64,000 bases of DNA from Azospirillum brasilense (GTDB taxonomy: Bacteria > Pseudomonadota > Alphaproteobacteria > Azospirillales > Azospirillaceae): the NCBI RefSeq assembly GCF_022023855.1, contig NZ_CP059455.1:1-64000 (forward strand), written 5' to 3'. Made by a program: the position numbers and the translations under genes. The notes beneath the pieces are model-generated. The model saw nothing but the letters and a program-made list of their open reading frames with translations. It was not told where the DNA came from and did no database searches. Numbering within the stretch: position 1 is the first letter of the stretch; the number at the start of each line of letters is the position of its first letter. Shown one piece after another: positions 6,640 to 55,692 of this stretch.

Positions 6640-7866
6640 TCATACGGCAAGCAGTTCGTCCGCTGGGCCAAAGAACTCGTAATGGATGCTGCCCAATGGC
6701 ACACCCCGGCCGGCGAGGCCGCCGACCATAGCGCGCAGGAACGGTCGAGGGCCACACAGATAGTAGGCCGCCTCCTGCGTCGGGGTGTTGGCCACGATCC
6801 AATCCATGCTGATGAAACCTCGCTCATCGTAGTCGCGCCCCTGAACGTCGGCCGGGTCAGGGGCGTTGTAATAGGTGCGCAGCGTGATGTTGCGAGCCTG
6901 AGCGGCCAGTGCCCGGGAATGATCGCGCATCGCATGAACGCGGCCGTTCTCGGCGCCGTGGATGTACCAGGTCGGCCGGCCATCGCCGGAACCGACAATG
7001 CTCTCCAGCATGCTCATCATCGGGGTCAGCCCGACGCCGCCGCTCAGCAGAACGACCGGCCCGGCGGAAGCCTCGTCGAGGAAGAATTCGCCGGCCGGAG
7101 GCGCCACCTTCAGCACCGTGCCCGGCTTGACGTGATCGTGCAGCCAGTTGGAGGCCAGCCCCGCCGGCCTGCCCGAGCCCTCCTCCCGCTTGACGCTGAT
7201 GCGGTAGGACCGGGAATCCGGAGCGGAGGAGATGGAATAGTTGCGCTTCAGCACACCGGCTCCCGGCATATCCAGCGCAAAGGTCAGATACTGACCGGGG
7301 CGGTGGCGGATCACACCGCGCCCGTCCGCCGGAACCAGGATGAAGGAGCGGATGATGTCGCTCTCCGGCGTCACGCTCTCCACCGTGAAGTCGCGCCAGC
7401 CGTTCCATCCGCCCGGCGCCGTGGCGAGCCCGGCGTAGACGCTGGCCTCCCGCGCTTTGAGCACGTCCGCCAGAAACCAATAGGCCTCGCCCCAGGCGTC
7501 GAGGACCTCGTCGGTCGCGGCGTCGCCCAGCACGTCCTTGATTGCGCCGAGCAGGGCATCGGCGACATAGGGGTAATGTTCGGGCAGGATGTTCAGCCCG
7601 ACATGCTTCTGCGTGATCCGCTCCACCCGCGAGGCCAGCACACCCAGGTTGTCGATGTTGCGGCCATAGGCGATGATTGCCGCCGTCAGCGCCTTGGACT
7701 GCGACCCGGTCTCGCCATGATGAGATTGATTGAACAGGTCGCGGATTTCCGGGGTGCGGAACAATCGCTGATACATGCGGTCGGTGACCGCGGTGCCGCC
7801 TTTCTCCAGGACGGGAACCGTGGCCTTGACGATGTCGATGGTTCGGTTGCTGAGAGCCTCCGCCAT
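6640..7866 (-). CDS. hmp: Flavohaemoglobin, nitric oxide dioxygenase
   Basis: 408-aa cytoplasmic enzyme converting NO + O2 to nitrate with NAD(P)H. Domains in order: globin (about 1-140) with B10 Tyr (Y32) and proximal His in QKHVGLN (H88); FAD-binding barrel (about 150-260) with the RNYSIS motif that binds flavin; NAD-binding domain (about 265-400) with LLSGGVGLTPMMSML and a terminal FFGPADEL typical of the family. It is full length. The neighbouring nor operon suggests a shared NO-handling locus: Hmp under oxygen, NorCB without it. A strong palindrome lies 48-75 bases upstream. Confidence 0.97.
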   Translation of the reverse strand: MAEALSNRTIDIVKATVPVLEKGGTAVTDRMYQRLFRTPEIRDLFNQSHHGETGSQSKALTAAIIAYGRNIDNLGVLASRVERITQKHVGLNILPEHYPYVADALLGAIKDVLGDAATDEVLDAWGEAYWFLADVLKAREASVYAGLATAPGGWNGWRDFTVESVTPESDIIRSFILVPADGRGVIRHRPGQYLTFALDMPGAGVLKRNYSISSAPDSRSYRISVKREEGSGRPAGLASNWLHDHVKPGTVLKVAPPAGEFFLDEASAGPVVLLSGGVGLTPMMSMLESIVGSGDGRPTWYIHGAENGRVHAMRDHSRALAAQARNITLRTYYNAPDPADVQGRDYDERGFISMDWIVANTPTQEAAYYLCGPRPFLRAMVGGLAGRGVPLGSIHYEFFGPADELLAV

Positions 7867-14034: not shown

Positions 14035-14190
14035 ATGAATGAAGCCCAAATCGGACTGCTGATCGTCTCGCCGCTGCTGGTCGGCATGGTTGTACTGTTG
14101 TATCGCCAGGGTGTTATGACGCGAAGCGGCGCAGCGCTCGCCGCGCTGGCTTCAGTCGGCACGGTCGCGTGGCTCTTCTTTACTCAGTAA
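14035..14190 (+). CDS. 51-aa two-helix membrane protein (paralogue of the 49925 gene)
   Basis: Begins MNEAQIGLLIVSPLLVG and ends TVAWLFFTQ, with a central LYRQG loop: two transmembrane helices joined by a short basic turn. The ribosome site is weak. Support for it being real comes from an ungapped match with the 51-aa protein encoded at 49925-50080: same length, same start (MN), same LYR-G loop and VAW near the end, 15 identities in 51 by eye. Function unknown. The IS6-type element inserted about 170 bases downstream. Confidence 0.6.
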   Translation: MNEAQIGLLIVSPLLVGMVVLLYRQGVMTRSGAALAALASVGTVAWLFFTQ

Positions 14191-14357
14191 ATTGTATCCG
14201 TTTTCGAGATGACAACGACAGGGGGAATGGTGGTTGCCCTCGTCAGAACGCAAACACTGCCGATCGTCGTTGTGACCAGTTGTGGGAGGTGGTTAAAGCG
14301 GCGATGCCAGCGGAGATCTTCGCACCACCCTGGACAAACGGCTCAATGGGATTTGCG

Positions 14358-15190
14358 GGCACCGTCAACTTGTTGACCCCCAGTTGCCGGGGCGGGCCGT
14401 GCGGGGTATGGGACGGCATGACGACGCGCCCCGATCCCCGCTACGCCGGCTACCGCTATCCCGCCGAGATCATTGCGATGGCGGTCTGGCTGTACTTCCG
14501 CTTTCCGCTCAGCCTGCGGATGGTCGAGGAGCTGCTGGCGGCGCGCGGCATCACCGTGAGCTACGAGACGGTGCGCCAGTGGGCTCGGAAGTTCGGCCCC
14601 GAGATCGCCACCCGGTTGCGCCGACGGGCGCCGCGCCGGGGCGACAAGTGGCACCTCGACGAGGTGGTCCTGACCATCGGCGGCCGCAAACATCACCTGT
14701 GGCGGGCCGTCGATCAGGACGGCTTCGTGCTCGACGTGCTGGTCCAGAGCCGGCGCGATACCAAGGCGGCCAAGCGTTTGCTGCGCAAGCTGCTGAAGAA
14801 GCAGGGCCGGGCGCCGCGGGTGCTGATCACCGACAAGCTGAAGGCCTACGCCGCCAAGCGGGCGATCATGCCGGGGGTGGAGCACGGCCAGCACAAGGGA
14901 CTGAACAACCGGGTCGAGAATTCCCACCAACCCACTCGTCGGCGCGAACGGCAAAGAAAGCGCTTCAAAGACCCCGCCCAGGGCCAGCGTTTCCTCGCCA
15001 TTCACGACCCGATCGCCAACCTGTTTCATCTCCGCCGCGACCACAGTCCCGTCACTGACTATCGGAAGGCCCGCGCCCAGGCGTTCCAGGTCTGGGCCGA
15101 AGTCGTCGGCGCACCACTGGCGGCGTAATCCGCAGACGGTTGCCGCCCGCCGTCCTCGCTCTGCCCGGTGTTCGATAAGTTGATGGTGCC
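14358..15190 (+). mobile_element. IS6-family insertion sequence
   Basis: 833-bp element with one transposase gene. Ends are imperfect inverted repeats: left GGCACCGTCAACTTGTTGAC at 14358, right (reverse strand) GGCACCATCAACTTATCGAA from 15190, 16 matches over 20 bases. IS6-family ends typically begin GGC. The flanking 8-mers (14350-14357 GATTTGCG; 15191-15198 TCCGCACC) do not match, so no target duplication is left; this is common when IS6 elements form cointegrates or delete adjacent DNA. Confidence 0.85.
14418..15128 (+). CDS. IS6-family DDE transposase
   Basis: 236 aa, full length for IS6-type transposases. Order: N-terminal helix-turn-helix-like part (RYPAEIIAMAVWLYFRFPLS then VEELLAARGITVSYETVRQW), first catalytic Asp in WHLDEVVL, second Asp in LITDKLKAYAA, and Glu in NNRVENSHQPTRRRERQ. 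ATG 14418 is the first start consistent with the family N-terminus. It appears intact and potentially active. Confidence 0.92.
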   Translation: MTTRPDPRYAGYRYPAEIIAMAVWLYFRFPLSLRMVEELLAARGITVSYETVRQWARKFGPEIATRLRRRAPRRGDKWHLDEVVLTIGGRKHHLWRAVDQDGFVLDVLVQSRRDTKAAKRLLRKLLKKQGRAPRVLITDKLKAYAAKRAIMPGVEHGQHKGLNNRVENSHQPTRRRERQRKRFKDPAQGQRFLAIHDPIANLFHLRRDHSPVTDYRKARAQAFQVWAEVVGAPLAA

Positions 15191-15595
15191 TCCGCACCTT
15201 CTCCGATGGCGTGTAATTCCGCCGCCGCTCCGTTCCTGTCAGAACCTCGACCCGCTGATAAGCCATGACGTTTGCAACTCGTTTGCGTCCGCGCGATGAC
15301 GCGCCACGCAAACCTCAGACGCCGGCCCCTACTTTGCCAAGGCGGTGCTTACCGGAGGCGTACGAAGGTTGGGGTGATCCAGGAGATGATCACCGGCGCC
15401 ACCCGGTTTTTCGTGCCGCACGGCGGGCCGGGGGTGATGGCGAAGGTGATCCAGTTCCGGCCCGTGGTGGATGGGGGAATAGCGGGACGCTAAGCCCCGC
15501 TTCAAATTTGGGATACCGTGAACCGTCTCGCCAAACAGCTTTGCCTTACACGGCGGCTCGCCCCCGTTGGAAAGCCGCCGTGACAGTCTGCGCGC
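15191..15595. other. Gap without a supportable gene
   Basis: About 400 bases between the IS6 element and the haemerythrin-phasin gene. A frame ending at 15493 contains VMAKVIQFRPVVDGG but has no family or ribosome support. Nothing else is visible. Confidence 0.4.
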
Positions 15596-16675
15596 CTATC
15601 GCCGTGAGCGCAGACCGTTACCCTTTTCCTGTGCTCTCTCACCAGCGTCATGAGCGCTGCACGTCATGCCTTGCATGGCTCGCATGGCGATCTGGCTCAT
15701 TCGCTCGCCCACTTCCATCATGGCCTGCATGTTGTCCTGCACATATCGGCTCTGCACCTCTACGAGTTGCATCGGGGTGGCGCTATGCGCAAAAGCTTGA
15801 GACGCACGTTTGCTCGTTTCAACAGACTTGTTCATCCAATCCATCCAGGCATCAACCACCTCGCGGGTGGCGTCGGCGGTCGCCATCGGCAGGGCGGCCA
15901 TAGTCTGGATGGCGGCGCGAGACGGTAGCGCCGTATCGGCGTAGCTTCTGGCCGTGCGAGTCATGGTCGAGGCCGTCTGTTGTGCCGCCTGGCCGATGAG
16001 GCCCGCCGCTTGGCGCGAGGCTTCCGTAGCGACCTCAGCTCCGGCCTGCGTCAACGTCCCACCGGTCTTCAGCGCCTGCACGCTGCCCTCCGTCATCGCT
16101 TCCGCTGGGCGCGTCAGCGCGGCACTCGCTTCACGGATGCGTTGCCTTTCGGCCTCCGCTTCAGCCTCCACGCGCTCCGCCTCCTCGCGTTCGCGGCGTG
16201 CGGCGGCACGACGTTCTTCGGCTTCGTCGCGCTTGGCTTCTTCGATCCTGGCCCGGCCAGCCTCCAGCTTCTCGGTGACTGCCTGCGCTTCTTCCTCACT
16301 CAGCGCTTTGCGCACGGCCGGCAACAGCTCTTTGCGCTCGTCGCGTACGTGCTGCTGAAAGACCTTCTTCAGCGCCGTAACCTTTTGAGCGAAGCCATCA
16401 TCGTCCTTGGGCGTACGCTCCAGGTCGGTCAGCAGCGCGCGAACCTGCTTGTTGTCGTTGATTGCGTCCGCCACCAAGTCCTTGGTTTCTCTGTGTTTCT
16501 TTAGGACTGGGAAGAGATGTTGCTCTTCCAGACGTGCTTGAACTTCCAACTCTTCCTTCAACTCGGCCAGCAGCTTCTCGCGGGTTTTCACCGCGCCGCT
16601 GGAGGTGTCGGACAGTTTGGCGAACAGCTCGTTTGCCTTGGCGGGACTGTTTTGAAGCAATTGCGTGATGGTCAT
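15596..16675 (-). CDS. Haemerythrin-like/phasin fusion protein
   Basis: 359 aa. The N-terminal ~125 residues are helical with the spacing of an HHE cation-binding domain (EEQHLFPVLKKH, then VFQQHVRDERKELLPAVRKA). A long charged coiled coil follows (about 130-180, EEAKRDEAEERRAAARREREE). The C-terminal ~170 residues look like a phasin (WMDWMNKSVETSKRASQAFA, then EVQSRYVQDNMQAMMEVGER). Phasins coat polyhydroxybutyrate granules; haemerythrins bind O2 or iron, or sense NO. GGGAGG lies seven bases upstream of ATG 16675. The fusion is unusual and may tether an O2/NO-binding module to PHB granules; that is inference. Confidence 0.75.
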   Translation of the reverse strand: MTITQLLQNSPAKANELFAKLSDTSSGAVKTREKLLAELKEELEVQARLEEQHLFPVLKKHRETKDLVADAINDNKQVRALLTDLERTPKDDDGFAQKVTALKKVFQQHVRDERKELLPAVRKALSEEEAQAVTEKLEAGRARIEEAKRDEAEERRAAARREREEAERVEAEAEAERQRIREASAALTRPAEAMTEGSVQALKTGGTLTQAGAEVATEASRQAAGLIGQAAQQTASTMTRTARSYADTALPSRAAIQTMAALPMATADATREVVDAWMDWMNKSVETSKRASQAFAHSATPMQLVEVQSRYVQDNMQAMMEVGERMSQIAMRAMQGMTCSAHDAGERAQEKGNGLRSRR

Positions 16676-17024
16676 CGCATCCTCCCAACCTGTCGGTGCG
16701 TCACACTTGCAGAGCAATGTTGCATCGCAACAAAAGCCCAACTCGGGAGCCCTTCAAGAGTTCCCACCTCCAACGGAGGGCGTGCCTCCCTTCGATCGAG
16801 GGCGAGGAGTGGGAAAGACCCGTCGTCGTGCCCTCCATCAGGGACTCCACCATTCTGTCCCCACCGACTGCGGGCTCCCGCCGGCTATCAGCCAATGCAG
16901 GATCAGAAAAGGGATAGCTGAATGGCTCTGCCCATGACCTTCTCGAACGTTTAGGTAGTGAGCTGGTCCCCGTTTCCCGGACAGTCGGATAAGCTTGGTT
17001 CGCCCATCAGGAAGGACGGACCCG

Positions 17025-17309
17025 ATGACGGGGAAACGGAAACGGTATTCGGCGGAGTTCAAGGCGAAGGTGGCGCTGGAGGCGATCCGGGGCGAGCTGA
17101 CGGTGTCGCAGCTTGTCGCGAAGCACGGGGTGCACCAGACGCTGATCAACGCCTGGAAGAAGCAGGCCATCGAGGGGATGGCCGGGGTGTTCTCCGCCAA
17201 GGCGGAAGTCGCCGAAGCCAGCCATCAGGGCGAGGTGGAAAAGCTGCACGCGATGATCGGCCAGTTGGTCGTGGAACGCGATTTTTTGCGCAAGGCCTCC
17301 GGTCGATGA
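17025..17309 (+). CDS. IS3-family transposase OrfA
   Basis: 94-aa helix-turn-helix protein that recognises the IS ends: KRYSAEFKAKVALEAIRGEL, then VSQLVAKHGVHQTLINAWKKQ and a leucine-zipper-like tail LHAMIGQLVVERDFLRKAS. Full length. The run GATTTTTTGCG just before its end is a possible slippery site for the -1 frameshift that makes the OrfAB fusion in this family. The orfB ATG overlaps its stop (ATGA at 17306-17309). Confidence 0.9.
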   Translation: MTGKRKRYSAEFKAKVALEAIRGELTVSQLVAKHGVHQTLINAWKKQAIEGMAGVFSAKAEVAEASHQGEVEKLHAMIGQLVVERDFLRKASGR

Positions 17310-17931: not shown

Positions 17932-20004
17932 TCAAGTGTCTGGAAACATTGAAAGTTGATCCTCGGAAGCGAGGCGGCACGGTTCTCCCTTCCGCCCGAT
18001 GGTGGCAAGAACCCGTTGCTCCCGAAGGTCGGAGGCGCGGATCTGGTAGGGAGCGCCGGGCACCACCTGCTCGGCGACGATCAGCCCGGCATCCATAAGG
18101 CGCCGAAGTCGGTGGCGCGAGATGCCGAGCGCCGCGGCGGCCTCGTACTGGGTCAGCCATTCGCCATCCTTCTCGGCCGACCGGTAGGCGCGGATGCCAT
18201 GGACCCGGCGCAACGAGCTGACACGGTGCCCGGTCCAGGATTTCCCCTGCCCGGTGCGCATGCCCATCCGGTTCAGCTGCGCAGCGATGTCCGCATCCGA
18301 CCAGCGCGTCGCCATGCTGCGGATCACCGCCATCGCTTCCTCCGGCGTCCGGCAACCGTGCTCCCCGGTTTGCGGCTTGGTGAGACGCAGCTGCGAGTGC
18401 TGGCCCCCGCGCCAATGGATGGTGAGGATGACCTCGCGCGCCGCCTCGTCGACGTCGGCGATGATGTTGACGATCAATGTCCGCAGCAGCCGTTGACGCG
18501 CCCTGGTGGTCACCCCCGGCGCGTTCCAGGCGGCCTGCAGGTCGTCCGCCAGCCCGGCGAAGTCCGGCGCCGCGGGAGCCGGAACGGGAGCCGACACGGA
18601 CGCGACCCGCGCTTCGCACGCCTCGACACGCTGAAGCGCCGCCTCCCAGTTCTTTTCCAACTGCGCGGCGATCAGCCGATTGTCGGGATCGCAGGCGACA
18701 TAGCGCCGTTCCGCCAGCGTCGCCTCGTAGCGCGCCTTCTGAAGATCCAACTCCGCCATCCGCCGTCGTTCGGTCTGGTGCTCCATATGCCTCCGCTCAG
18801 CTTCCAGCGCGGCCTCGATCGCCATCGGCTCGACGGCTCGCAGAAGTTCGCCGGCGACCGCCTCGTCCACCCGGGAACTTCCGAACCCAAGGCATCGTGG
18901 CAGCCCGAGCATCTGGTTCGGGCGGTCGCAGCGATAGCCGGCTTGGCTCGGGCTGCGGCCACGGTAGGACACCGCCAGCCGTCGCCCGCACCGCGCACAG
19001 CTCAGGACGCCGACCAGCAAGGCGCGCCCGCCGCGCCCCGACTTCGCGCCGCCGACCCGGCCGTAGGCGTTGGCGGCGAGCAGCGTCTGGTTGCGCTCGA
19101 ACTCGTCCCAGTCCACGTAAGCCTCGTGGTGATCCTTCAGCAGAACCTCCCACTCTTCAAGCGGCTTGCCGTGGCCATAGCTCTTCCGCGCCCGCCCTTC
19201 GACGATTTCGGTGCGGTGCTGGCTCTTTCCGTAAACGTAGGCGCCGGCATAGAAGGGGTTCTTGAGCACACTGATGACATTGCGGTAGCGGATCGGCGTC
19301 CAGTCGAAGCTGATCAGTCTCTTGCCGTCAGACGGCCGCGGGAAGCAGACTCCTTCTGCTGCCAGCGACAGCAGGACCTGGCGCGCGCTGCCCAGCTCCC
19401 GGAAGCGGGTGAAGACGAGGCGGATCACCTCCTGAACCCGCAGGTCCGGATCGAATCCCAGACCGACCTCTCGGTGCCAGATGTAGCCGATCGGCACGCT
19501 GATGCGCAGTTCGCCTCGCCGCGCCTTGCTGCGGGCGGCATCAAGCATCCGGGTCCGCAGCACTCCCAACTCGAACTCGCTCATGCTGCCCTTCATGCCC
19601 AGCAGCAGCCGATCGTTCGGCCGCCCCGGATCGTAGATGCCGTCGAGGTCGATGACCCTGGCCTCGACGAGCCCGCAGAGTTCGAGCAGGTGGTGCCAGT
19701 CCCGGCCGTTGCGGGCGAGCCGGGAGGCGTCGAGGCACAGCACGGCGCCGATCTCGCCTGCACAGAGCGACGCCACCAGCCGCTCGAACCCGGGCCGCGC
19801 CATGGTGCCGCTGGCGGAGCGCCCGAGATCGTCGTCGATCACCTCGACCCGGCGGAAGCCTCGGCGCTTGGCCGCATCAACGAGTTCGTACTGCCGGCGT
19901 TTGCTCTCCAGGTTGGTCTGGACCTGCGCCGGGGAGGACTGGCGGACGTAGACCACGGCCTTGCGCTTGAGCACCGACGGCGGCAGGAGATCAGTGTTCG
20001 CCAT
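17932..20004 (-). CDS. Large serine recombinase of element A
   Basis: 690 aa. N-terminal resolvase domain (about 15-160) with nucleophile Ser in VYVRQSSPAQ and catalytic Arg in the EVIDDDLGRSASG and DASRLARNGRDW motifs; recombinase domain (about 170-290); zinc ribbon (CARCGRRLAV ... YRCDRP ... LPRC); coiled coil (about 400-500); C-terminal helix-turn-helix-like part (YEAAAALGISRHRLRRLMDA). ATG 20004 is preferred over 20028 because GGGAG lies nine bases upstream and MANTDLLPPS suits the family. About 35% identity by eye to the element B recombinase. It should integrate and excise element A. Confidence 0.93.
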   Translation of the reverse strand: MANTDLLPPSVLKRKAVVYVRQSSPAQVQTNLESKRRQYELVDAAKRRGFRRVEVIDDDLGRSASGTMARPGFERLVASLCAGEIGAVLCLDASRLARNGRDWHHLLELCGLVEARVIDLDGIYDPGRPNDRLLLGMKGSMSEFELGVLRTRMLDAARSKARRGELRISVPIGYIWHREVGLGFDPDLRVQEVIRLVFTRFRELGSARQVLLSLAAEGVCFPRPSDGKRLISFDWTPIRYRNVISVLKNPFYAGAYVYGKSQHRTEIVEGRARKSYGHGKPLEEWEVLLKDHHEAYVDWDEFERNQTLLAANAYGRVGGAKSGRGGRALLVGVLSCARCGRRLAVSYRGRSPSQAGYRCDRPNQMLGLPRCLGFGSSRVDEAVAGELLRAVEPMAIEAALEAERRHMEHQTERRRMAELDLQKARYEATLAERRYVACDPDNRLIAAQLEKNWEAALQRVEACEARVASVSAPVPAPAAPDFAGLADDLQAAWNAPGVTTRARQRLLRTLIVNIIADVDEAAREVILTIHWRGGQHSQLRLTKPQTGEHGCRTPEEAMAVIRSMATRWSDADIAAQLNRMGMRTGQGKSWTGHRVSSLRRVHGIRAYRSAEKDGEWLTQYEAAAALGISRHRLRRLMDAGLIVAEQVVPGAPYQIRASDLREQRVLATIGRKGEPCRLASEDQLSMFPDT

Positions 20005-20176
20005 CGTCACGCTCCCCGGTTCCGGCACCTGCGGCTTCCATCAGGAGAAGGGCCAATTGCACCACCGCCGCGGCGCGGTCGGCCGGGCTGATCGCCCGCA
20101 GCCTTGCGGTGTCGAAGGTCATGCTGAGCTGGCGCCGGGTCCTGGCCCGTCGTGTTGATGCTGACGGCGTCTTCAT
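19991..20176 (-). CDS. Element A small protein (~60 aa)
   Basis: 61 aa, basic N-terminus (KTPSASTRRARTRRQLSMTF) and a hydrophobic-helical C-terminal half (AAAVVQLALLLMEAAGAG). GGAGGAG seven bases before ATG 20176 is one of the best ribosome sites of the region. It overlaps the 3' part of the HPLYG frame and the recombinase start. It aligns loosely with the 59-aa protein of element B (RR..QLS..., L.LLLEA.GA). It may be a directionality or regulatory factor; no family is recognised. Confidence 0.7.
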   Translation of the reverse strand: MKTPSASTRRARTRRQLSMTFDTARLRAISPADRAAAVVQLALLLMEAAGAGTGERDDGEH

Positions 20177-47849: not shown

Positions 47850-49868
47850 TTACTTTTCCAGGACATAGGTTCCGGGCGCGTCGGCGAGCGCCGGGTGCGT
47901 CGCGCTGCCCAGCGCCGGCGGCTTTCCCTTTCGACCCGACCGTTCAGCCAACCATGACGTCCAGTCCGTCCACCAGCTGCCGCTGTGCGCGGTGGCCTTC
48001 CCGCGCCACGCCTGCGCGGTCGCGCCGGGCTCTCCGGCATCGTTGGTCCAGTAGGTGCCCTTGCCGCCGGGCGGGTTGATGATGCCGGCGATGTGCCCGC
48101 TGGACGCCAGCACGTAGCGCACCTTGCTCCCCTTGAGCAGCTGCGTGACGCGCCACGCGGAGTCCCAGGGCACGATGTGGTCCTTCTCCGCGCCGACCGC
48201 GTAGACGTCCTGAGGGATGCGCCCGAGGTCGATGGCCTCGCCCTTGAGCCTGACCTTGCCCGGAGCGATCAGGTTGTTCTCGACATAGGTGTTGCGCAGG
48301 TACCAGCTGTGCGCCGCCCGCGCCATGCGGGTGCCGTCGCTGTTCCAATACAGAAGATCGAAGGCCGGGGGCTTGTTGCCCATCAGGTAGTTGTTGACGA
48401 CGTTCGACCAGATCAGGTCGTTGGAGCGCAGGAGGTTGAACATGTTGCTCATCTCCCGGCTGTCGAGGTAGCCGCGCTCCATCATCTGCTGTTCGATGAA
48501 GTCCACCGCCGGTTCGCCCATGAACACCGCGGTGTCGCCGACATGGGAGAAATCCTGGAGCGACACCATGAAGGTGGCGGCGTTAAACCGGGTGTCGCGC
48601 TTCGCCGCCAGCCAGGCGAGCGTAATGGCGAGCAGCGTGCCGCCGATGCAGTAGCCCATCACATTGATGGAGGTGGCCCCGGTGATGTCGCGCACCACGT
48701 CGGCGGCCTCCAGCGGGCCGAGGTCCATGTAGTCCTCGAAGCCGACACCGTCCATCGAGGCGTCCGGGTTCTTCCACGAGACCACGAACACCGTGAAACC
48801 TTGCTCGACCAGATGGCGCACCATCGAGTTCTTCGGCTGGAGGTCGAGGATGTAGTACTTGTTGATCCACGGCGGCAGGATGAGGAGCGGCACCGCATGC
48901 ACCGCCCCGCCCGCCGGCTGATACTGGATCAGCTCGATCAGCCGGTTGCGGTGGACGATCTTGCCGGGGGTCGTCGCCAGATTGCGCCCCGGTTCGAAGG
49001 CGGTGGCGTCCACCATGCTGAGGCGGCCCTCCCGCAGGTCCGAGAGCAGGTTGCGCGCGCCGTCGGCCAGGCTGACGCCACCGGTTTCCAACACCCGGCG
49101 CAAGGCGGCCGGGTTGGAGAACAGCAAAAGCGTCGGGCTCATGGCGTCGACGAACTGGCGGAGATGGAAGGTCAGCCGCCGCCGTTCGGCGTCGTCGAGG
49201 CCGTCGGCCTGCTCGCCCTGCTCCAGCAGCCAGTCGGAGGCCAGCAGGTACACCTCCTTGAGCGTCCGGTAGGCCGGGTTGGTGTGCCATTCCGGTGCGG
49301 CGAAGCGCTTGTCGCCGTGGGGCGCCGAACCCGATCCGGCGGTGTCCGTCCCTTTGCCGTCGGCCAGCCCCCACCAGCGGCGGCCTGCGTCGTTCCAGGC
49401 CTCCATCGCGGACGTCCAGACGCCCGCCTGGGCATCGGCGGCCCTGCGGAAGGTCCTGTCCGGGCGGCTGAGCGACTGCATCCACACGGTCCGGAGCGCG
49501 TGGGCGACCTCCGCCCAGTCGACCGGCACGATGGTGCGGAAGGGATTGGCGTTCCACAGGCCATCGATGGACCGAAGCACCGGGTCGTTGGCGAGGACGT
49601 CGTTGAGCCGCCGGGTTCCGGCGTCCAGCAGGGTGCCGGTGAGATCGTTGGGCGAAACCTGCCACCATGGCCTGACGGCTCCGCTCCAATCGCGGACGGC
49701 CCCGACGTTGGCCTCCAGCCAGGATGTCCAGAGTCCCAGCGCCATGTCGGGTCTCATGGACAGCCGGTCGTGATTGTCGTCCGTGCCGGTCTTCCGCTTT
49801 GTGGCTTCGCCGTCTCCACGGGATTGGTCGCGTCGGCGGCGATGTTCCGTTCCTCTGTCAGTGCCCAT
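47850..49868 (-). CDS. phaC: Poly(3-hydroxyalkanoate) synthase, class I
   Basis: 672 aa. Polymerises 3-hydroxyacyl-CoA into PHB at the granule surface. The lipase-like box is GYCIGG with catalytic Cys407; other motifs are LILPPWINKYYILDLQPKNS, WKNPDASMDGVGFEDYM and a catalytic His region SSGHIAGIINPPGGKG. N-terminal PhaC_N domain about 115-290. With start ATG 49868 (AAAGG upstream) it has an extra Arg-rich N-terminus; ATG at residue 38 (MRPDMALGLW) could be the true start. Phasins in this window would share its granules. Confidence 0.93.
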   Translation of the reverse strand: MGTDRGTEHRRRRDQSRGDGEATKRKTGTDDNHDRLSMRPDMALGLWTSWLEANVGAVRDWSGAVRPWWQVSPNDLTGTLLDAGTRRLNDVLANDPVLRSIDGLWNANPFRTIVPVDWAEVAHALRTVWMQSLSRPDRTFRRAADAQAGVWTSAMEAWNDAGRRWWGLADGKGTDTAGSGSAPHGDKRFAAPEWHTNPAYRTLKEVYLLASDWLLEQGEQADGLDDAERRRLTFHLRQFVDAMSPTLLLFSNPAALRRVLETGGVSLADGARNLLSDLREGRLSMVDATAFEPGRNLATTPGKIVHRNRLIELIQYQPAGGAVHAVPLLILPPWINKYYILDLQPKNSMVRHLVEQGFTVFVVSWKNPDASMDGVGFEDYMDLGPLEAADVVRDITGATSINVMGYCIGGTLLAITLAWLAAKRDTRFNAATFMVSLQDFSHVGDTAVFMGEPAVDFIEQQMMERGYLDSREMSNMFNLLRSNDLIWSNVVNNYLMGNKPPAFDLLYWNSDGTRMARAAHSWYLRNTYVENNLIAPGKVRLKGEAIDLGRIPQDVYAVGAEKDHIVPWDSAWRVTQLLKGSKVRYVLASSGHIAGIINPPGGKGTYWTNDAGEPGATAQAWRGKATAHSGSWWTDWTSWLAERSGRKGKPPALGSATHPALADAPGTYVLEK

Positions 49869-49924
49869 GGGAAAAGCCTTTCGTTCGTTTGGCCCAACGC
49901 CCGGTCCAACGCCCGGGGAACCCG

Positions 49925-50080
49925 TCACGGACTGGCGAGCATCCACGCCACCACGGCGGCGATGCCGATCAGCACGCCGCCCAACCCGGCCTCGCTGAGG
50001 CGGCCGCGCCGGTACAGGGCGACGGAAACCGCGATGACCGAGGCGGCGGCGATGAACAGGCCCGCCTGTGATTGGTTCAT
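49925..50080 (-). CDS. 51-aa two-helix membrane protein
   Basis: MNQSQAGLFIAAASVIAVSV, LYRRGRLSEAG loop, then VLIGIAAVVAWMLASP. Two membrane helices with a basic turn. GGGGAGAGG before ATG 50080 is a good ribosome site. Same length and layout as the protein at 14035-14190 (15 of 51 identities, no gaps). It lies upstream of phaC (same strand) and divergent from exoD. Confidence 0.72.
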   Translation of the reverse strand: MNQSQAGLFIAAASVIAVSVALYRRGRLSEAGLGGVLIGIAAVVAWMLASP

Positions 50081-50170
50081 GGCCTCTCCCCCCACCCCGC
50101 ACGTTTCACCCTTCCGAGCCGCTTGCCCGTCCCCATCTCCCGAGGGGTCGACCGTCCAAGGGGCATTCTC

Positions 50171-50764
50171 ATGATCGCGCGTGCGCCCACATCCGTGGTG
50201 CTGAACGGGGTTCTCGGCGAAGCGCCCGCGGAGCATGTGACGCTGGACTGGCTCATCGGAAGGCTCGGCCTCCGTTCCTTCGGTGTCATCCTCCTTCTCC
50301 TCGCGCTCGTCGGCGTGCTTCCGGGCGTGTCGGCCATGGCCGGCGTGCTGCTCACCATCGTCGCGTTCCAGATGATCCTGGATCGTCCCGGTCCCGCCTT
50401 TCCCCGCCGCATCGCCAGCCGCCATGTCGAGACCCGCCGGCTGGCCGCGATCATCGGCCGGACCGTCCCGGTGTTGCGCTACCTGGAACGCTTCATCCGC
50501 CCGCGCTGGGCCACCCCGTTCACGGCAACCAAGCGGGTGGTCGGCGGTGTCGTCCTGCTGCTCGGCGCGAGCCTCCTCATCCCTGTCCCCTTGAGCAACC
50601 TTCCCCCGGCGCTGCTCATCGTTCTGATCGCCTTCGCCTATCTGGAGGAGGACGGCGCGCTGCTCTGCGTCGCGCTGGTCGGCACGCTCCTTCTGTCCGT
50701 GATCGCCGCGGGAGCGGCCTGGCAGGCGATGAGCGCGGCCGGTTGGCTGCCGAGCGTGCTGTAG
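50171..50764 (+). CDS. exoD: ExoD-family membrane protein
   Basis: 197 aa. ExoD pattern: TLDWLIGRLGLRSFGVILLL, LALVGVLPGVSAMAGVLLTI, QMILDRPGPAFPRRIASRHV, then RPRWATPFTATKRVVGGVVL and IPLSNLPPALLIVLIAFA-like end (here IPVPLSNLPPALLIVLIAFA). Four to five membrane helices. In Sinorhizobium ExoD affects exopolysaccharide production and alkali tolerance. AAGGGG is upstream of ATG 50171. Confidence 0.9.
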   Translation: MIARAPTSVVLNGVLGEAPAEHVTLDWLIGRLGLRSFGVILLLLALVGVLPGVSAMAGVLLTIVAFQMILDRPGPAFPRRIASRHVETRRLAAIIGRTVPVLRYLERFIRPRWATPFTATKRVVGGVVLLLGASLLIPVPLSNLPPALLIVLIAFAYLEEDGALLCVALVGTLLLSVIAAGAAWQAMSAAGWLPSVL

Positions 50765-50824
50765 GAGATCCCCGCTCCCGACCGGGCCGAAGGATCATCC
50801 CGCGCATCATGCCCGCGGCGTCCC

Positions 50825-51100
50825 CTATGCGGTCGTCTCAGCCATGGCCGCGTCGGCCTGCTCGGCTCGTTCCAAGTCCAGGGGGGCGACCGTGATGGCC
50901 TGGGCGAGGGTCATTCCGCCGGCGCGCACCGGAAGCAGGATCACCGTCGCGACACGCCGATAGGCTGGGAAGGACAAGCCGTCGACCAGCTCCTCGTCGG
51001 TTTCAACAATGTAGGCTCCCGCCGGCTGCACGCCGTCGATCCCCTCCAATAGGAAGGGGTGCGAGAAGGTCACCGTTCTGCGGCTGGTGCGTGTGAGCAT
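50825..51100 (-). CDS. Small conserved hypothetical protein
   Basis: 91 aa: TRRTVTFSHPFLLEGIDGVQ, then PAGAYIVETDEELVDGLSFP and AYRRVATVILLPVRAGGMTL. I recall similar ~90-aa proteins in many alphaproteobacteria, without known function. AGGAGA is upstream of ATG 51100. Converges with exoD. Confidence 0.75.
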   Translation of the reverse strand: MLTRTSRRTVTFSHPFLLEGIDGVQPAGAYIVETDEELVDGLSFPAYRRVATVILLPVRAGGMTLAQAITVAPLDLERAEQADAAMAETTA

Positions 51101-51613
51101 CGGACGTCTCCTGGGGCTTGATCGGCGTGGTGCGAAGGGGGAGGAGATGCGGGAGGCGACGAGGGCCAACCTTCCGACATGGCGGCGTTCCAAGACCCGT
51201 TGTCGTCCGCCCTGGACCGCCGTTCGATGGAGGGAACCGCCGGACGGCCCTCGCCCCTCGCAGCGCCGTCCGGAATCGCGACCGATTTCTGGTCTTCATG
51301 CAAAATATTATTAATGAGATCGTCAATCATCATGTCCTCCGATCCGCAGCGATGAAATTTTCCTAAGTCGCCGCTTCGGTATTTTCATATAAGCAATGCC
51401 GCGAAGCTTTGGTGAGATTGCGGACGAAAATTCGGGACATGCCACTTTGTTTCTGCAGACAGACTCGGAAACGCGGCAATTTTTCTGAAATTCGGCGACG
51501 GGAGCGGTGACCGCAGCTGGGGCCAGTCGGCTTCACCCCACCGGATTGAGCCGGCCCAAGGCGCCTGCTCCTTCGGGGAGCAGGCGTTCGCTGGCAACAA
51601 TTGGCGCTTGGGG
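51101..51613. other. Intergenic stretch with one strong hairpin
   Basis: About 510 bases, AT-richer at 51290-51440. No gene is supported. Contains the promoter of the 91-aa gene and the terminator-like hairpin listed separately. Confidence 0.4.
51562..51586. terminator. GC-rich hairpin after the DUF2382 gene
   Basis: CGCCTGCTCC (51562-51571), short loop, GGAGCAGGCG (51577-51586): perfect 10-bp stem with a UUCG-type loop on the plus strand. It lies 28 bases beyond the DUF2382 stop on the minus strand. No clear T-run follows, so it may end transcription with Rho or stabilise the 3' end. Confidence 0.55.
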
Positions 51614-52375
51614 TCAGCGCTTGGTGGCGGGGCGGTCGCCGGTGGGCTTGACCTTCACATCGGTGCGCCGCGCCGAGGCTTCCACGGTCTTGTCGTGCTC
51701 GGTCGCCTTCTTGGACAGCACGACTTCCTCGACCACGCGCGCCTCCTTGGTCACCTCCGGCGTCTCGGAGGTGGCCGTCATCTCGACGGTCTTCTCCTCG
51801 AAGGCGGCGTCCGCCTCACGGGCGCCGAGAGCCCGGTCGGCCTTGTGACGTTCGACATCCACCTTTTCCTCGCGCAGCCGGACGGTCTCCCGAACCGGCG
51901 TCTCGGTCACCTCCGTCGTGACCTGCACCCCGCCTTTGCTGACACGGCGCTTGCCGATCTCCACCTGCTCTTCGACCACGGGAACGGTCTCCTCCTCCAT
52001 GTCCGTGCCGCTGCCCACCGTTCCTTTATCCGTCTTTCCGCTGTCCGCCTTCGCCGTTTTTTTCGACTGATGCGAGGAGGCGTCGGGCAGGTCGATGGCG
52101 CCGTTCTCGTCAAGAATGGCCTCCGCGGCATCCGCGTCCTGATCGGCGATGTCGGCCGCCACCAGGGTGTGGCCCTGCTTGATCGCGGCGGCGTACCGCT
52201 GCGCGATGTCCTTGGTGAAGCCGTGGCCCAGCAACTCCTGTGTCGCCTTGTCGGCGTTGCCGGCTCCGTCGAAGGTGTCGATGTCCTTCTCCCGGCAACC
52301 GGCCGCAATGAGGGCCTGGAAGGCCTTCTGGGCGGCGCGCGGCTCCTTGTACAGTCCTACGACGATGGTGCTCAT
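51614..52375 (-). CDS. DUF2382 (YsnF/AvaK) stress protein
   Basis: 253 aa. N-terminal general-stress-like half (STIVVGLYKEPRAAQKAFQA, then GCREKDIDTFDGAGNADKAT) and a C-terminal DUF2382 domain (VPVVEEQVEIGKRRVSKGGV, TETPVRETVRLREEKVDVER, EMTATSETPEVTKEARVVEE). DUF2382 proteins are stress-induced in cyanobacteria and Bacillus. One of four in this window, in two pairs of different sizes. Confidence 0.88.
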   Translation of the reverse strand: MSTIVVGLYKEPRAAQKAFQALIAAGCREKDIDTFDGAGNADKATQELLGHGFTKDIAQRYAAAIKQGHTLVAADIADQDADAAEAILDENGAIDLPDASSHQSKKTAKADSGKTDKGTVGSGTDMEEETVPVVEEQVEIGKRRVSKGGVQVTTEVTETPVRETVRLREEKVDVERHKADRALGAREADAAFEEKTVEMTATSETPEVTKEARVVEEVVLSKKATEHDKTVEASARRTDVKVKPTGDRPATKR

Positions 52376-52412
52376 GATGGTCTCCGTTGAAGTCAGATGA
52401 TGGCGAGGCCGG

Positions 52413-52811
52413 TCAGACCTCGGTGTCGGGCGGGGGGTGCATCCGTTCGATGATGATGTCTTGGCGGCGAACCGTGACCGTGTCGTCGAACCGGCGGGTG
52501 GCGGTGTCGCGGGTGATGCGCACCTCCTCCACCAGCTTCAGCCGCAAGGTCACGGTCGCGACCTCCTCGACGACCGAGATGATGGTCGTGTCGCCCTCCT
52601 GGCGGTCGGCGATCGGGTGATCGACGAACCGGTCGCACGGCACCCGCTCGATCCGGATGGTCTGCACCGACAGGTCGGCTTCGACCGGCTGCTCATGCTC
52701 GTGGGTGACGGTGTGGGCCTGGAGCGTTTCCGTGACCCGCTCACGCTTGCGGATGCTCACCTGCTCCTCGACCACCGGAAGCGTGTTCTGTTCGTTGATG
52801 GGCGCCTTCAC
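52413..52811 (-). CDS. Short DUF2382 protein
   Basis: 132 aa, DUF2382 alone: NTLPVVEEQVSIRKRERVTE, then EQPVEADLSVQTIRIERVPC and EEVRITRDTATRRFDDTVTV. GTG start at 52811 with GGAGGACCCCC upstream. Possibly an operon with the longer DUF2382 gene 37 bases downstream. Confidence 0.85.
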   Translation of the reverse strand: MKAPINEQNTLPVVEEQVSIRKRERVTETLQAHTVTHEHEQPVEADLSVQTIRIERVPCDRFVDHPIADRQEGDTTIISVVEEVATVTLRLKLVEEVRITRDTATRRFDDTVTVRRQDIIIERMHPPPDTEV

Positions 52812-52891
52812 GGGGGTCCTCCTGCCGCTGGATGGGGTGGCATCACCGTCCCCCGAACGATCGGCGGATGGTTGGACGGCTGCCGGGCGCG

Positions 52892-53470
52892 TCAGACCGG
52901 GTGCCGGTTCCGCTTGCGATCCGCCTCGTCTGCCGTATGGGCCGAAGCCCGGGCGATGCGGCCGTTGGCGTCGAGGAAGGCTTGCAGCCCGCCAAGCATG
53001 TAGCGGTTCCCGGCGAGCAGGATGTCGCTCGGGCTGCGCGCCCGGAGCATGTCGGTCATCATCTCGCTCTGGCGCTGGGCCGCTTGCTGCATGTACCGGA
53101 CGATCTCGGAGCACGCCGCCTCATAGCGCGAGGTCATGGCGTTGCCGAACCCCATGGCGGCCGTGAGGTTCTGTTCGGCAGGATGGGCCGCGTCCTGAAC
53201 CATGCGGCCAGCCAGTTCGCCACCGGCGGCGAATTGCTGGGCCGCCCGCTCGGTCGCCCGTTCGGCGGAGCCGCCGCCGGCTTGTGCCTTCCGGCCTTCG
53301 AAAGAGCGGGCCGACTGGTCGTGGGGCTGCCTGGCCTCGGGCTTGCCGGACCTCGTCGCCCCCTCGTCGCTGGCGCTGCGGATGCTGTGGGTTTTGGGGC
53401 TTTCCGTCTTCGCGGCTGCCTCGTCGCTGGCGCTGCGGATCGTGTGAACGGGGGACGTGCCGTCGGCCAT
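52892..53470 (-). CDS. Phasin-family protein
   Basis: 192 aa. C-terminal phasin helices (TSRYEAACSEIVRYMQQAAQ, then RQSEMMTDMLRARSPSDILL and RYMLGGLQAFLDANGRIAR). The N-terminal 50 residues contain a tandem repeat (HTIRSASDEAAAKTESPK / HSIRSASDEGATRSGKPE), also visible as repeated DNA at about 53365-53450. GGAG lies upstream of ATG 53470. Expected to bind PHB granules together with PhaC. Confidence 0.82.
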   Translation of the reverse strand: MADGTSPVHTIRSASDEAAAKTESPKTHSIRSASDEGATRSGKPEARQPHDQSARSFEGRKAQAGGGSAERATERAAQQFAAGGELAGRMVQDAAHPAEQNLTAAMGFGNAMTSRYEAACSEIVRYMQQAAQRQSEMMTDMLRARSPSDILLAGNRYMLGGLQAFLDANGRIARASAHTADEADRKRNRHPV

Positions 53471-53843
53471 GTTGAACTCCAATAACTGATCAATGATTGA
53501 TTGGGGGCCAGGGAGCAGGTGGGCTCGACCTGTTGTGTCCTGCATCTATATTATGACGCATCGCACAATAACAAGGATCTTGAAAAGGAATATACCAATT
53601 GGAACCAGAATTATCGATATTAAGAGAATGTGCATTGACAGGATTTCTGATAATTACAAGGCGCACGCAACCTGAATTTTTCATTTTCTCATGACTGCGA
53701 CGGACCTGGGAAAATACGTTGATCCTTTTTCTGGTCCGAGCGGGACGAAGCCGGTCAAGAAAGAAGGGAGCCCGCCACGCGCCGCGATTTCGGGCTCCAC
53801 GCCGCCGTTAACGGCGGTGGCCGGTCATCATTGCCGGTCGGTT
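53471..53843. other. AT-rich intergenic stretch
   Basis: About 370 bases, unusually AT-rich at 53560-53690. No gene is supported. It should contain the phasin promoter. An inverted repeat GCCGCCGTTAACGGCGGT (53801-53818) centred on GTTAAC is visible near its right end. Confidence 0.5.
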
Positions 53844-54773
53844 TTATCGAACGACGCGCTGGGTCACCCGCAGCCGGCGCTGCACGGCCAGGGAGCCGCC
53901 GACCGCCGCGGCAACGGCGCCGAGCAGCAGGACGGCAAAGCCGGCGAAGGAGGTCCGGGACGCCGCCGACGCACTGGCGTCCGCCGTGTCCTTGGCGGTC
54001 TGCACGGCCTTGTCGCGGGCCTGCTGCAGCTTGGCTTGACCGTCTTCGAAACGCTGGGCGGCTTCGTCGTGGCTGACCTTCATCTGGGCCGCCATGATGG
54101 TGATGATCCGCTCCTTGGCCGCCGCCGCCTCGCCGCCGCCGCCCGCATAGGTGACCAGTTCGGTCGCGATCACCTTCTGGGCGTCCTGCGGGCTCATCGT
54201 GGCCGGATCGGGGTTCGCCAGCTGCAGATACGCTTCGGCCTGTTGCCGAACCATGTCGGGGGATACTCCCGCCGCCTGGGCAAGCGGCTTGGCCGCGTCA
54301 CCGAGTCCGCTGCCCGCCGCCGAGGTCACGCTGCCCAAGGCCGAGAAGCCGCCACCGATGATCCCGCCGATGGCCGAGGTCAGCAGCCAGAACGTCACGA
54401 GGGTGGTGATCCCCCAGGTGACCAAGCCGTGCAGCATCCCGTCGAACCGGATCTCGACACCGGCCAGCCAGGCCGCGACATACCCGCCCGCGGCAATGGC
54501 GAGGCAACTGCTGATGACCCACCAGATGCCCGCTCCGATGCCAAGGCTGCTGGCGCTCGGGGTGCTTCCCGCGTTGGTTTCGACCGTGCCCAGGCCGATG
54601 CCGGCGCCCAGCAGGCTGAGCACGAGCTGGATGGCGAGGGCCAGGATCACGCCCCCGAAGATCGCCGCCCATGAGATGCGGCGGTGGATGTGCGAGTGCC
54701 CCTCCGTCGTGGTGGTGGTCTCGAGCACGCCCGAACCGCGAAGCGGCGGGGCGGCATAGGTGTCCGTTGACAT
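53844..54773 (-). CDS. Multi-helix membrane protein of the stress cluster
   Basis: 309 aa. A glycine-rich four-helix membrane part (about 30-160; ISWAAIFGGVILALAIQLVL, WWVISSCLAIAAGGYVAAWL), a soluble helical part with an Ala/Asp-rich stretch (VRQQAEAYLQLANPDPATMS ... DGQAKLQQARDKAVQTAKD) and a final membrane helix (FAGFAVLLLGAVAAAVGGSL). Similar proteins are annotated PhnA-like or YrzE in other alphaproteobacteria (from memory). Located among DUF2382 genes; function unknown. Confidence 0.75.
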   Translation of the reverse strand: MSTDTYAAPPLRGSGVLETTTTTEGHSHIHRRISWAAIFGGVILALAIQLVLSLLGAGIGLGTVETNAGSTPSASSLGIGAGIWWVISSCLAIAAGGYVAAWLAGVEIRFDGMLHGLVTWGITTLVTFWLLTSAIGGIIGGGFSALGSVTSAAGSGLGDAAKPLAQAAGVSPDMVRQQAEAYLQLANPDPATMSPQDAQKVIATELVTYAGGGGEAAAAKERIITIMAAQMKVSHDEAAQRFEDGQAKLQQARDKAVQTAKDTADASASAASRTSFAGFAVLLLGAVAAAVGGSLAVQRRLRVTQRVVR

Positions 54774-54852
54774 TGTGGTCGCTCCGGAAGAGGGCGTTCG
54801 AAGCCCCTCACAGGACCCCGAACGCAGGTTGGCAGGGGGAGCAGGGTTCGGA

Positions 54853-55692
54853 TCAAGTTTTGGCGACGGGCGGAGCGGTCGAAATTTTCTCGATTTCGAC
54901 ATCCTCGCGGCGCACGGTGTCCCTCACCGTCTCGACGCGCTCCGTCGCGTCCTTGCGCAGCACCACCTCTTCGGTGACCCGGGCGGTCTTGCCGACAACG
55001 GCCTCCTCGTCCGTCTCGGTCATCTCGATCGTCTTCTCGGTGAAGTCCGCCTCCCCGACCGGATGGTCGCCGGTCACCGCGCGGCGCTCGACCGTCACCG
55101 TCTCGTCGCGCAGGCTGACCTGCTCCTCGACCGGCGTTTCGACCACGAAGCGGCGGACGCGGGTCGTGCCGCGGTTCACCGCGCGCTTGCCGACCTGCAA
55201 CTGCTCCTCGGACAGTTGGATGCTGCCGCTCCCACTGCCGACCGCGTTGCTGCCCTCATTGACCGCGGCCATTCCGGCGGCGCCTTCCCGTGTGGGGGTC
55301 ACCGGTGCGGCCGTGACCGGTGACGTTGCGGTGCTCGTCGTCGTTCCCGACAGTCCGTAGGCGGACGCCCGCTCGTCGATGTCGGCCGGGCCGTGCCTCT
55401 CCAGGATTTCGCTCACCATCGTGGCGTGCTGCGCCGGAGTCCTGACGGTCACGACGGTCGAACCGCTGTCCAGGCTGCGGTCATAGACGGCGTTGTCATG
55501 ATCCGGGTCGCCGCCGAACAGGCTGGCCCAGAAGCCCGTCTCCTGGGCGGGAATCGCCGCGGCGGTTCCCGGTGCCTTGCGGGCGTGCCGGCTGATCGCA
55601 TCCGCCGGAACGTTGGCCGCCTTGAGGTCACGCACGGCGGCATCAGCCTGGGCGTCCGTGTCGAAAATGGCGACGATGGTTTCGTCCGTCAT
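54853..55692 (-). CDS. DUF2382 (YsnF) stress protein, long form
   Basis: 279 aa. N-terminal general-stress domain (ETIVAIFDTDAQADAAVRDL, then GFWASLFGGDPDHDNAVYDR and VTVRTPAQHATMVSEILERH) and a C-terminal DUF2382 domain (IQLSEEQLQVGKRAVNRGTT, ETPVEEQVSLRDETVTVERR, KTIEMTETDEEAVVGKTARV). Same architecture as the protein at 51614. 79 bases upstream of the membrane-protein gene; likely co-regulated. Confidence 0.88.
   Translation of the reverse strand: MTDETIVAIFDTDAQADAAVRDLKAANVPADAISRHARKAPGTAAAIPAQETGFWASLFGGDPDHDNAVYDRSLDSGSTVVTVRTPAQHATMVSEILERHGPADIDERASAYGLSGTTTSTATSPVTAAPVTPTREGAAGMAAVNEGSNAVGSGSGSIQLSEEQLQVGKRAVNRGTTRVRRFVVETPVEEQVSLRDETVTVERRAVTGDHPVGEADFTEKTIEMTETDEEAVVGKTARVTEEVVLRKDATERVETVRDTVRREDVEIEKISTAPPVAKT

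Follow-up and report, generated by a model that had tools for sequence, protein, structure and literature searches.

Among the described systems closest to the locus studied here are the phasins of Azospirillum brasilense Sp7, for which the consulted part of the report (PMC6761214) lists six Phasin_2 proteins, PhaP1-PhaP6, of 142-283 aa, and PA2171 of Pseudomonas, which is reported in the consulted part of PMC13041383 to be a translation repressor that binds both ribosomes and FtsZ. For the regulator PhaR, the consensus TGCRNYGCASMA was obtained in Bradyrhizobium from PhaR footprints on two phasin promoters and from six more bound promoters, as given in the excerpt of PMC6201568 used here. A literature search combining phasin with hemerythrin or haemerythrin found no description of a fusion of the two, as judged by titles and the openings of abstracts, and nothing was found when phasin was combined with DUF2382 and stress; in the consulted part of a Herbaspirillum granule-proteome paper (PMC3783465), no mention of hemerythrin or FtsZ was found. 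Here, we describe such a fusion, a 359-aa protein encoded in A. brasilense. The window, i.e., the whole stretch of DNA analysed (64,000 nucleotides, contig NZ_CP059455.1), is part of a contig of 71,090 bases (C7) in a genome of 7.39 Mb and eight contigs. Since the listed Sp7 phasins are too short for a protein of 359 aa, none of them corresponds to this fusion, and given the six Phasin_2 proteins without the fusion in that part of the Sp7 report against eight Phasin_2 matches in the window's genome, the fusion protein appears to be an accessory phasin.

Translation of the window gave a single open frame for the fusion gene, with its ATG at 16675 directly preceded by GGGAGG, a Shine-Dalgarno-like sequence (Table 1). 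Pfam searches of the encoded protein placed a Hemerythrin domain (PF01814; 58.6 bits, E 1.2e-15, cut-off 25.3) in the N-terminal part and a Phasin_2 domain (PF09361; 32.3 bits, E 1.2e-07, cut-off 24.9) in the C-terminal part, both over the cut-off. An AlphaFold2 model, calculated from an 18-row alignment (A3) of the window protein and related-locus sequences, predicted a helical bundle for the head (helices 3-23, 29-59, 65-87, 93-111, and 117-124), one long helix along the charged part, and a pair of helices (253-296 and 301-351) covering the phasin match. The mean pLDDT of the model was 69.1 and its pTM 0.41, so the mutual placement of the parts is unreliable. When this model was compared with the PDB using Foldseek, zero matches were obtained at E 0.001 or better, the top one being the FBXL5 hemerythrin domain (E 0.16). 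VIA-align matched it to NMB1532 (Z 12.7) and hemerythrin 4xpx (Z 11.8), but unrelated four-helix bundles scored equal or higher Z than hemerythrins and designed four-helix bundles came first, and the fold match by itself is therefore not specific. An earlier note on this DNA had proposed that an HHE domain, a charged coil, and a phasin are joined here in one protein of non-standard arrangement. The open frame and both Pfam matches, including that of the phasin part, bear this out, and a mis-joined frame or a chance fusion was dismissed because other species and genera show the same two domains in this arrangement.

Table 1 Features of the fusion locus and its surroundings, with positions in the window
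Feature	Position	Strand	Basis
Fusion gene, 359-aa pseudo-hemerythrin/phasin protein	15596..16675	minus	Open frame, translation, homologues with the same layout
Hemerythrin-like four-helix bundle, residues 12-121; ligand position P11 just outside, Q46 and N75 inside	16313..16642	minus	PF01814, ligand columns, model helices
Long charged helix, residues 127-204, predicted coil joining head to phasin	16064..16297	minus	AlphaFold2
Phasin_2 domain, residues 252-335, two predicted helices	15671..15922	minus	PF09361; same stretch in genome search
PhaR-operator-like palindrome TGTTGC-GAT-GCAACA; TGCGATGCAACA matches TGCRNYGCASMA at 11/12	16718..16732	minus	Published consensus (PMC6201568)
ECF-type promoter motif GGAAC-N16-AGTT, 89 nt before ATG	16740..16764	minus	Conserved in 11/11 Azospirillum-type loci
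IS6-type transposase (DDE_Tnp_IS240), downstream of fusion gene, context	14169..15128	plus	Pfam; IS6 in the same place in TSH58
IS3-type transposase OrfA (HTH_Tnp_1), upstream of fusion gene, context	16995..17309	plus	Pfam; TSH58 has an IS3 at this position
Flavohaemoprotein gene (hmpA in TSH58)	6640-7866	minus	Pfam; beside two kinase-like frames
Large serine recombinase (Resolvase and Recombinase domains)	17932-20028	minus	Pfam
phaC frame	47850-50102	minus	Pfam
DUF2382 gene	51614-52375	minus	Pfam
Second phasin gene	52892-53545	minus	Pfam
352-aa frame, no Pfam match at E 1e-4	53844-54902	minus	Pfam
DUF2382 gene	54853-55692	minus	Pfam

To describe the distribution of the fusion, homologues were searched in 61 genomes, including 37 from the same genus. 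Matches with E below 1e-50 were found in eight same-genus genomes at ten places, the window's genome included, and in none of the 24 genomes of other genera. A scan of named genomes gave 17 loci in Azospirillum, Roseomonas/Roseococcus, Siccirubricoccus, Dankookia, a Rhodospirillales MAG, and Microvirga, and a scan of plasmids gave 14 records from Microvirga, Paracoccus, Rhizobium, Azospirillum, and Rhodobacter, of which eight were examined. Before counting, we removed L048, L052, L053, and L055 (the same loci as L058, L064, L059, and L060) and L104 (the same record as L047). The resulting family set contained 30 distinct alphaproteobacterial members, the window protein among them. When 385 genomes of the class were searched with the alignment of phasin-type members, a near-full-length match was found only in the window's own genome, a weak negative with the best five candidates scored for most genomes; almost all of the other matches were confined to one half, either head or phasin.

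PF01814 scored over the cut-off in 29 of the 30 members, and L108 gave no match at E 0.01. The C-terminus was less uniform, with Phasin_2 over the cut-off in 16 members, DUF2382 in 11, and neither in three. The weakest Phasin_2 member over the cut-off was L060 (25.0 vs 24.9 bits); L110 stayed under it with 22.8 bits, and the C-termini of L054 and L105 matched neither domain. Phasin_2 reached 57-70 bits in four phasin-type Microvirga relatives (maximum 69.8) and 25-37 bits in the remaining matching Azospirillum-type members, the score being modest in the window protein too. In Rhodobacter sp. CZR27 (L105:6995-8110), where no C-terminal Pfam domain was recognised, the last 60 residues look phasin-like by eye, and two YsnF/AvaK genes follow. 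In a maximum-likelihood tree of the heads, the 30 members grouped into a single clade (100/100) that excluded the 11 ordinary hemerythrins, with a long-branch warning for the outgroup rows and weak support for the deepest forks within the family. One DUF2382-type group sat with the Rhizobium and Paracoccus phasin-types (99/96), and the other with the Microvirga phasin-types and the Rhodobacter member (99/94). Since DUF2382-type members fall into two separate groups, the tail has been exchanged at least twice. Judged by these comparisons, the HHE-phasin fusion is a conserved family and not a one-off, and the exchange of phasin and DUF2382 behind a common head points to the head as the working part, with the C-terminus setting its location.

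The hemerythrin ligand columns were then read from an alignment of the 30 family members and the 11 ordinary hemerythrins, in which they correspond to window residues 11, 46, 50, 75, 109, and 113. A HMMER alignment to PDB 6q09 agreed with this mapping for the last five columns, column 11 lying beyond its reach. All 11 comparison hemerythrins, which were hand-picked from the homologue matches for easily read frames (the 30 family rows were not chosen by ligand), carry H, H, E, H, H, and E at the six columns; column 11 is no independent test for them, because they were cut at anchors containing the first His. In the window protein, Pro11, Gln46, and Asn75 stand in positions that are His in the comparison hemerythrins, so that three of the four His are replaced and only Glu50, His109, and Glu113 are retained. 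Across the family, column 11 is P in 27 members, S in two, and L in one; column 46 is H in nine, Q in nine, L in nine, and Y in three (non-His in 21 of 30); column 50 is E in 26; column 75 is N in 29 and I in one; column 109 is H in 23 (non-His in seven of 30); and column 113 is E in 16, D in ten, and G in four. His is thus missing at both column 11 and column 75 in 30/30 members. The fusion protein lacks the di-iron His/Glu ligand set of Hemerythrin HHE (PF01814), and with E50, H109, and E113 as all that is left of it in the window protein, a hemerythrin di-iron centre can hardly form, although a weak single-metal site in the head is possible. The check suggested by the earlier note, a predicted bundle with metal-binding His and Glu, thus recovered the bundle but not the metal ligands.

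The head is the best conserved part of the protein. In the 18-protein alignment, all 37 invariant columns lie within residues 8-125, and the C-terminus is variable and even replaced. P11, N75, and K13-A14-N15-E16-L17-F18-A19-K20-L21 are invariant, the last being a motif that differs from the ligand pattern. The position of these invariant head residues outside the ligand pattern suggests that they form a binding surface.

Upstream of the fusion gene, a palindrome resembling the PhaR operator was found, and upstream sites were scored against the Bradyrhizobium consensus with at most one mismatch allowed. Such a site is present in all 11 Azospirillum-type fusion loci, exactly in three (shuffles: 7.7% with at most one mismatch, 0.5% exact), and in the window's genome it precedes all seven other phasin genes, exactly in five. 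As controls we used open frames chosen by codon-position GC and not annotated genes, including some near-copy loci: among 40 other window frames, three had a site and none an exact one (one of the three is the second phasin gene, also counted among the seven), and among 193 neighbouring frames, 16 had a site, five of them exact. Of the five, those at L068, L073, and L106 belong to frames that lie next to the fusion gene and diverge from it, and one (L107) to an annotated phasin. We had predicted that PhaR-like sites mark phasin-type genes alone, and this failed, as DUF2382-type genes carry them too: the site is exact in six of 11 DUF2382-type genes, and only two of seven phasin-type genes outside Azospirillum come within one mismatch. 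In the scan that included the 193 neighbouring frames, L105, without a C-terminal Pfam match, was grouped with the 11 DUF2382-type genes. The PhaR-like site is thus characteristic of a large part of the family rather than of the phasin domain as such. A PhaR orthologue is encoded on contig C5 of the window's genome (PF07879 105.5 bits, PF05233 65 bits, both over the cut-off). A first scan with CTGCN3GCAG, which we take to be the Rhodobacter PhaR motif, had given sites with up to one mismatch in six of the 11 Azospirillum-type loci, the rate in shuffles being 11.5%; a literature search for this motif found none.

The PhaR-like palindrome lies just downstream of an ECF-type promoter motif. In all 11 Azospirillum-type loci (eight with near-copies merged), GGAAC-N16/17-[A/G]GTT stands 88-119 nt ahead of the start codon from which distances were measured; in L049, L054, and L064, this codon is probably later than the true start. 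Upstream identity between lineages of these loci is 36-58%, and 66-68% between L058 and the window group. GGAAC-N16/17-NGTT was found within 200 nt upstream in 0 of the 193 neighbouring frames, a range that excludes the Microvirga GGAAC-N16-CGTT sites at about -232, and in 0.4% of dinucleotide shuffles per locus. On both strands of the window, it occurs five times, close to the estimated chance; as a single occurrence is meaningless at that frequency, the argument is its conservation across loci. We take GGAAC-N16/17-CGTT to be the consensus of EcfG (PhyR-NepR) general stress promoters, and the window site, with AGTT at its -10 part, departs by one mismatch from CGTT and so falls short of an EcfG promoter. 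Exact GGAAC-N16-CGTT was found only in the Microvirga DUF2382-type loci, in five of five (L068, L069, L070, L073, and L106), 231-234 nt upstream, and three of these five also have a PhaR-like site with at most one mismatch near -200. In the window's genome, nothing scored over the cut-off for PhyR (25.4 vs 27), and the match for NepR was borderline. Elsewhere in this genome, on contig C2 (L114:3916-4948), an ECF-type sigma factor, which could regulate a stress regulon, is encoded beside a small protein whose NepR and zf-HC2 matches are borderline. A sigma-70 scan of 15300-17000 found no promoter-like site. Both upstream motifs were first spotted by eye in the same sequences, so the figures above are after the fact and the pattern is not a confirmed prediction.

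Contig C7 is probably an Azospirillum plasmid, judging by its size and its match to plasmid TSH58_p05 of Azospirillum sp. TSH58, which encodes a relative with 96.3% protein identity to the window fusion protein. The order on TSH58_p05 is hmpA, GAF kinase, PAS kinase, IS6, fusion gene, and IS3, and the window has frames matching hmpA and the two kinases in length and order, followed by IS6, fusion, and IS3 genes; Pfam confirmed the hmpA, IS6, and IS3 genes, while the kinases were matched by frame length and order. The fusion gene is flanked by the IS6- and IS3-type transposase genes, with no recognised gene lying closer on either side, and it may move with insertion sequences. The flavohaemoprotein gene shares the contig with the fusion gene, and no link between them was found. 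Some 31-39 kb from the fusion gene, the minus strand at 47850-55692 carries a PHB and stress cluster comprising phaC, a phasin, and two DUF2382 genes. Around the plasmid-borne relatives, DUF2382, YsnF/AvaK, AI-2E, OsmC, ferritin-like, or phasin genes are near the relative in four of eight regions, and the other four lack them.

The architecture, the ligand loss, the conservation of the head, and the conserved upstream motifs can be read directly from the sequences. On this basis, we consider it reasonably probable that the fusion protein is an accessory granule protein controlled by PHB and stress, whose metal-free head binds a partner protein. When PHB accumulates, PhaR would leave the operator TGTTGC-N3-GCAACA, and an ECF-type sigma factor would transcribe the fusion gene. 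The two phasin helices would lie on the granule surface, the charged coil would hold the metal-free head outward from the granule, and under stress the head would dock its partner.

The proposal of the earlier note, a di-iron hemerythrin module on PHB granules that senses or scavenges O2 or NO, could draw on the PF01814 match, on the retained Glu50, His109, and Glu113, and on the flavohaemoprotein gene of the same contig, but the ligand losses across the family make it very improbable, and a di-iron O2/NO sensor was dismissed. What survives of that proposal is the location: the protein is probably granule-associated, given the PhaR-like site, the PhaR orthologue, and phaC and a second phasin on the contig, while the metal module falls with P11, Q46, and N75. 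The same ligand loss would fit a head that is a decayed, inert hemerythrin on what is simply one more phasin, as would the patchy occurrence of an accessory gene found in eight of 37 same-genus genomes and on plasmids; we regard this as rather unlikely, because all of the invariant columns lie in the head, while the C-terminus varies or is replaced. The phasin-like part might instead be an alanine-rich helical region of a generic oligomerisation type, in a stress protein that is soluble and makes no contact with PHB. The modest Phasin_2 score and the relatives with DUF2382 or without a recognised C-terminal domain speak for this, the high Phasin_2 scores of the four Microvirga relatives and the PhaR-type site upstream speak against it, and we hold it to be unlikely.

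The best NCBIfam match of the fusion protein was NF053874, the PA2171 family (residues 3-147, 72.3 bits), and 18/18 members of alignment A3 matched this model at E 0.001. With PA2171 reported, in the part of PMC13041383 consulted, as a binder of ribosomes and FtsZ that represses translation, a PA2171-like head could bind ribosomes (and FtsZ), and the phasin could keep this inhibitor, or ribosomes that are idle, on PHB granules when cells starve. However, the score is far below the 190-bit cut-off, other hemerythrins of the window's genome also match NF053874, with 62 and 48 bits, and L074, which exceeds the cut-off (197.4 bits), keeps all six ligands and groups outside the fusion family in the tree. 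Straight membership of the PA2171 family was dismissed on the score and the tree position, and an assignment to the RIC/YtfE di-iron (iron-sulphur) repair proteins (TIGR03652) on 20 vs 204.7 bits. Given the match below the cut-off and the ligands and tree position of L074, ribosome docking is a minor possibility by analogy and not our chosen reading, and the fuller version, in which a metal-free head distantly related to the persister protein that binds ribosomes and FtsZ brings idle machinery of translation or division to the granules, is quite unlikely. If it were true, the granule would also serve as a dormancy depot that the PHB level (PhaR) and stress (ECF sigma) switch on together, and the same head would be re-targeted elsewhere where DUF2382 replaces phasin.

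The accessory granule protein with a partner-binding head thus remains our preferred reading, and it defines a testable family of probable PHB-granule proteins with a hemerythrin fold emptied of its ligands, a conserved docking head, and a targeting tail that can be exchanged. Should the head prove to bind a partner from the stress response or from translation, the role of PHB granules would go beyond carbon storage. The family also warns that a PF01814 match does not mean iron or O2 chemistry unless the ligands are checked.

Compared with HHE proteins (PF01814), the head is likewise a predicted four-helix bundle, but the iron ligands are replaced throughout the fusion family. NF053874 is the nearest named model for the head, and the fusion protein differs from the PA2171 family in its score of 72.3 against 190 bits and in its phasin part, which the 157-position model lacks. 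Like Phasin_2 phasins, the fusion protein scores over the PF09361 cut-off, has long helices, and is preceded by a PhaR-type site; unlike the Sp7 phasins in the consulted part of PMC6761214, it is 359 aa long with an N-terminal hemerythrin-fold head. Whereas the window protein has no match to DUF2382 (PF09557), its family is tied to these stress proteins through the 11 of 30 members in which DUF2382 replaces the phasin behind the same head.
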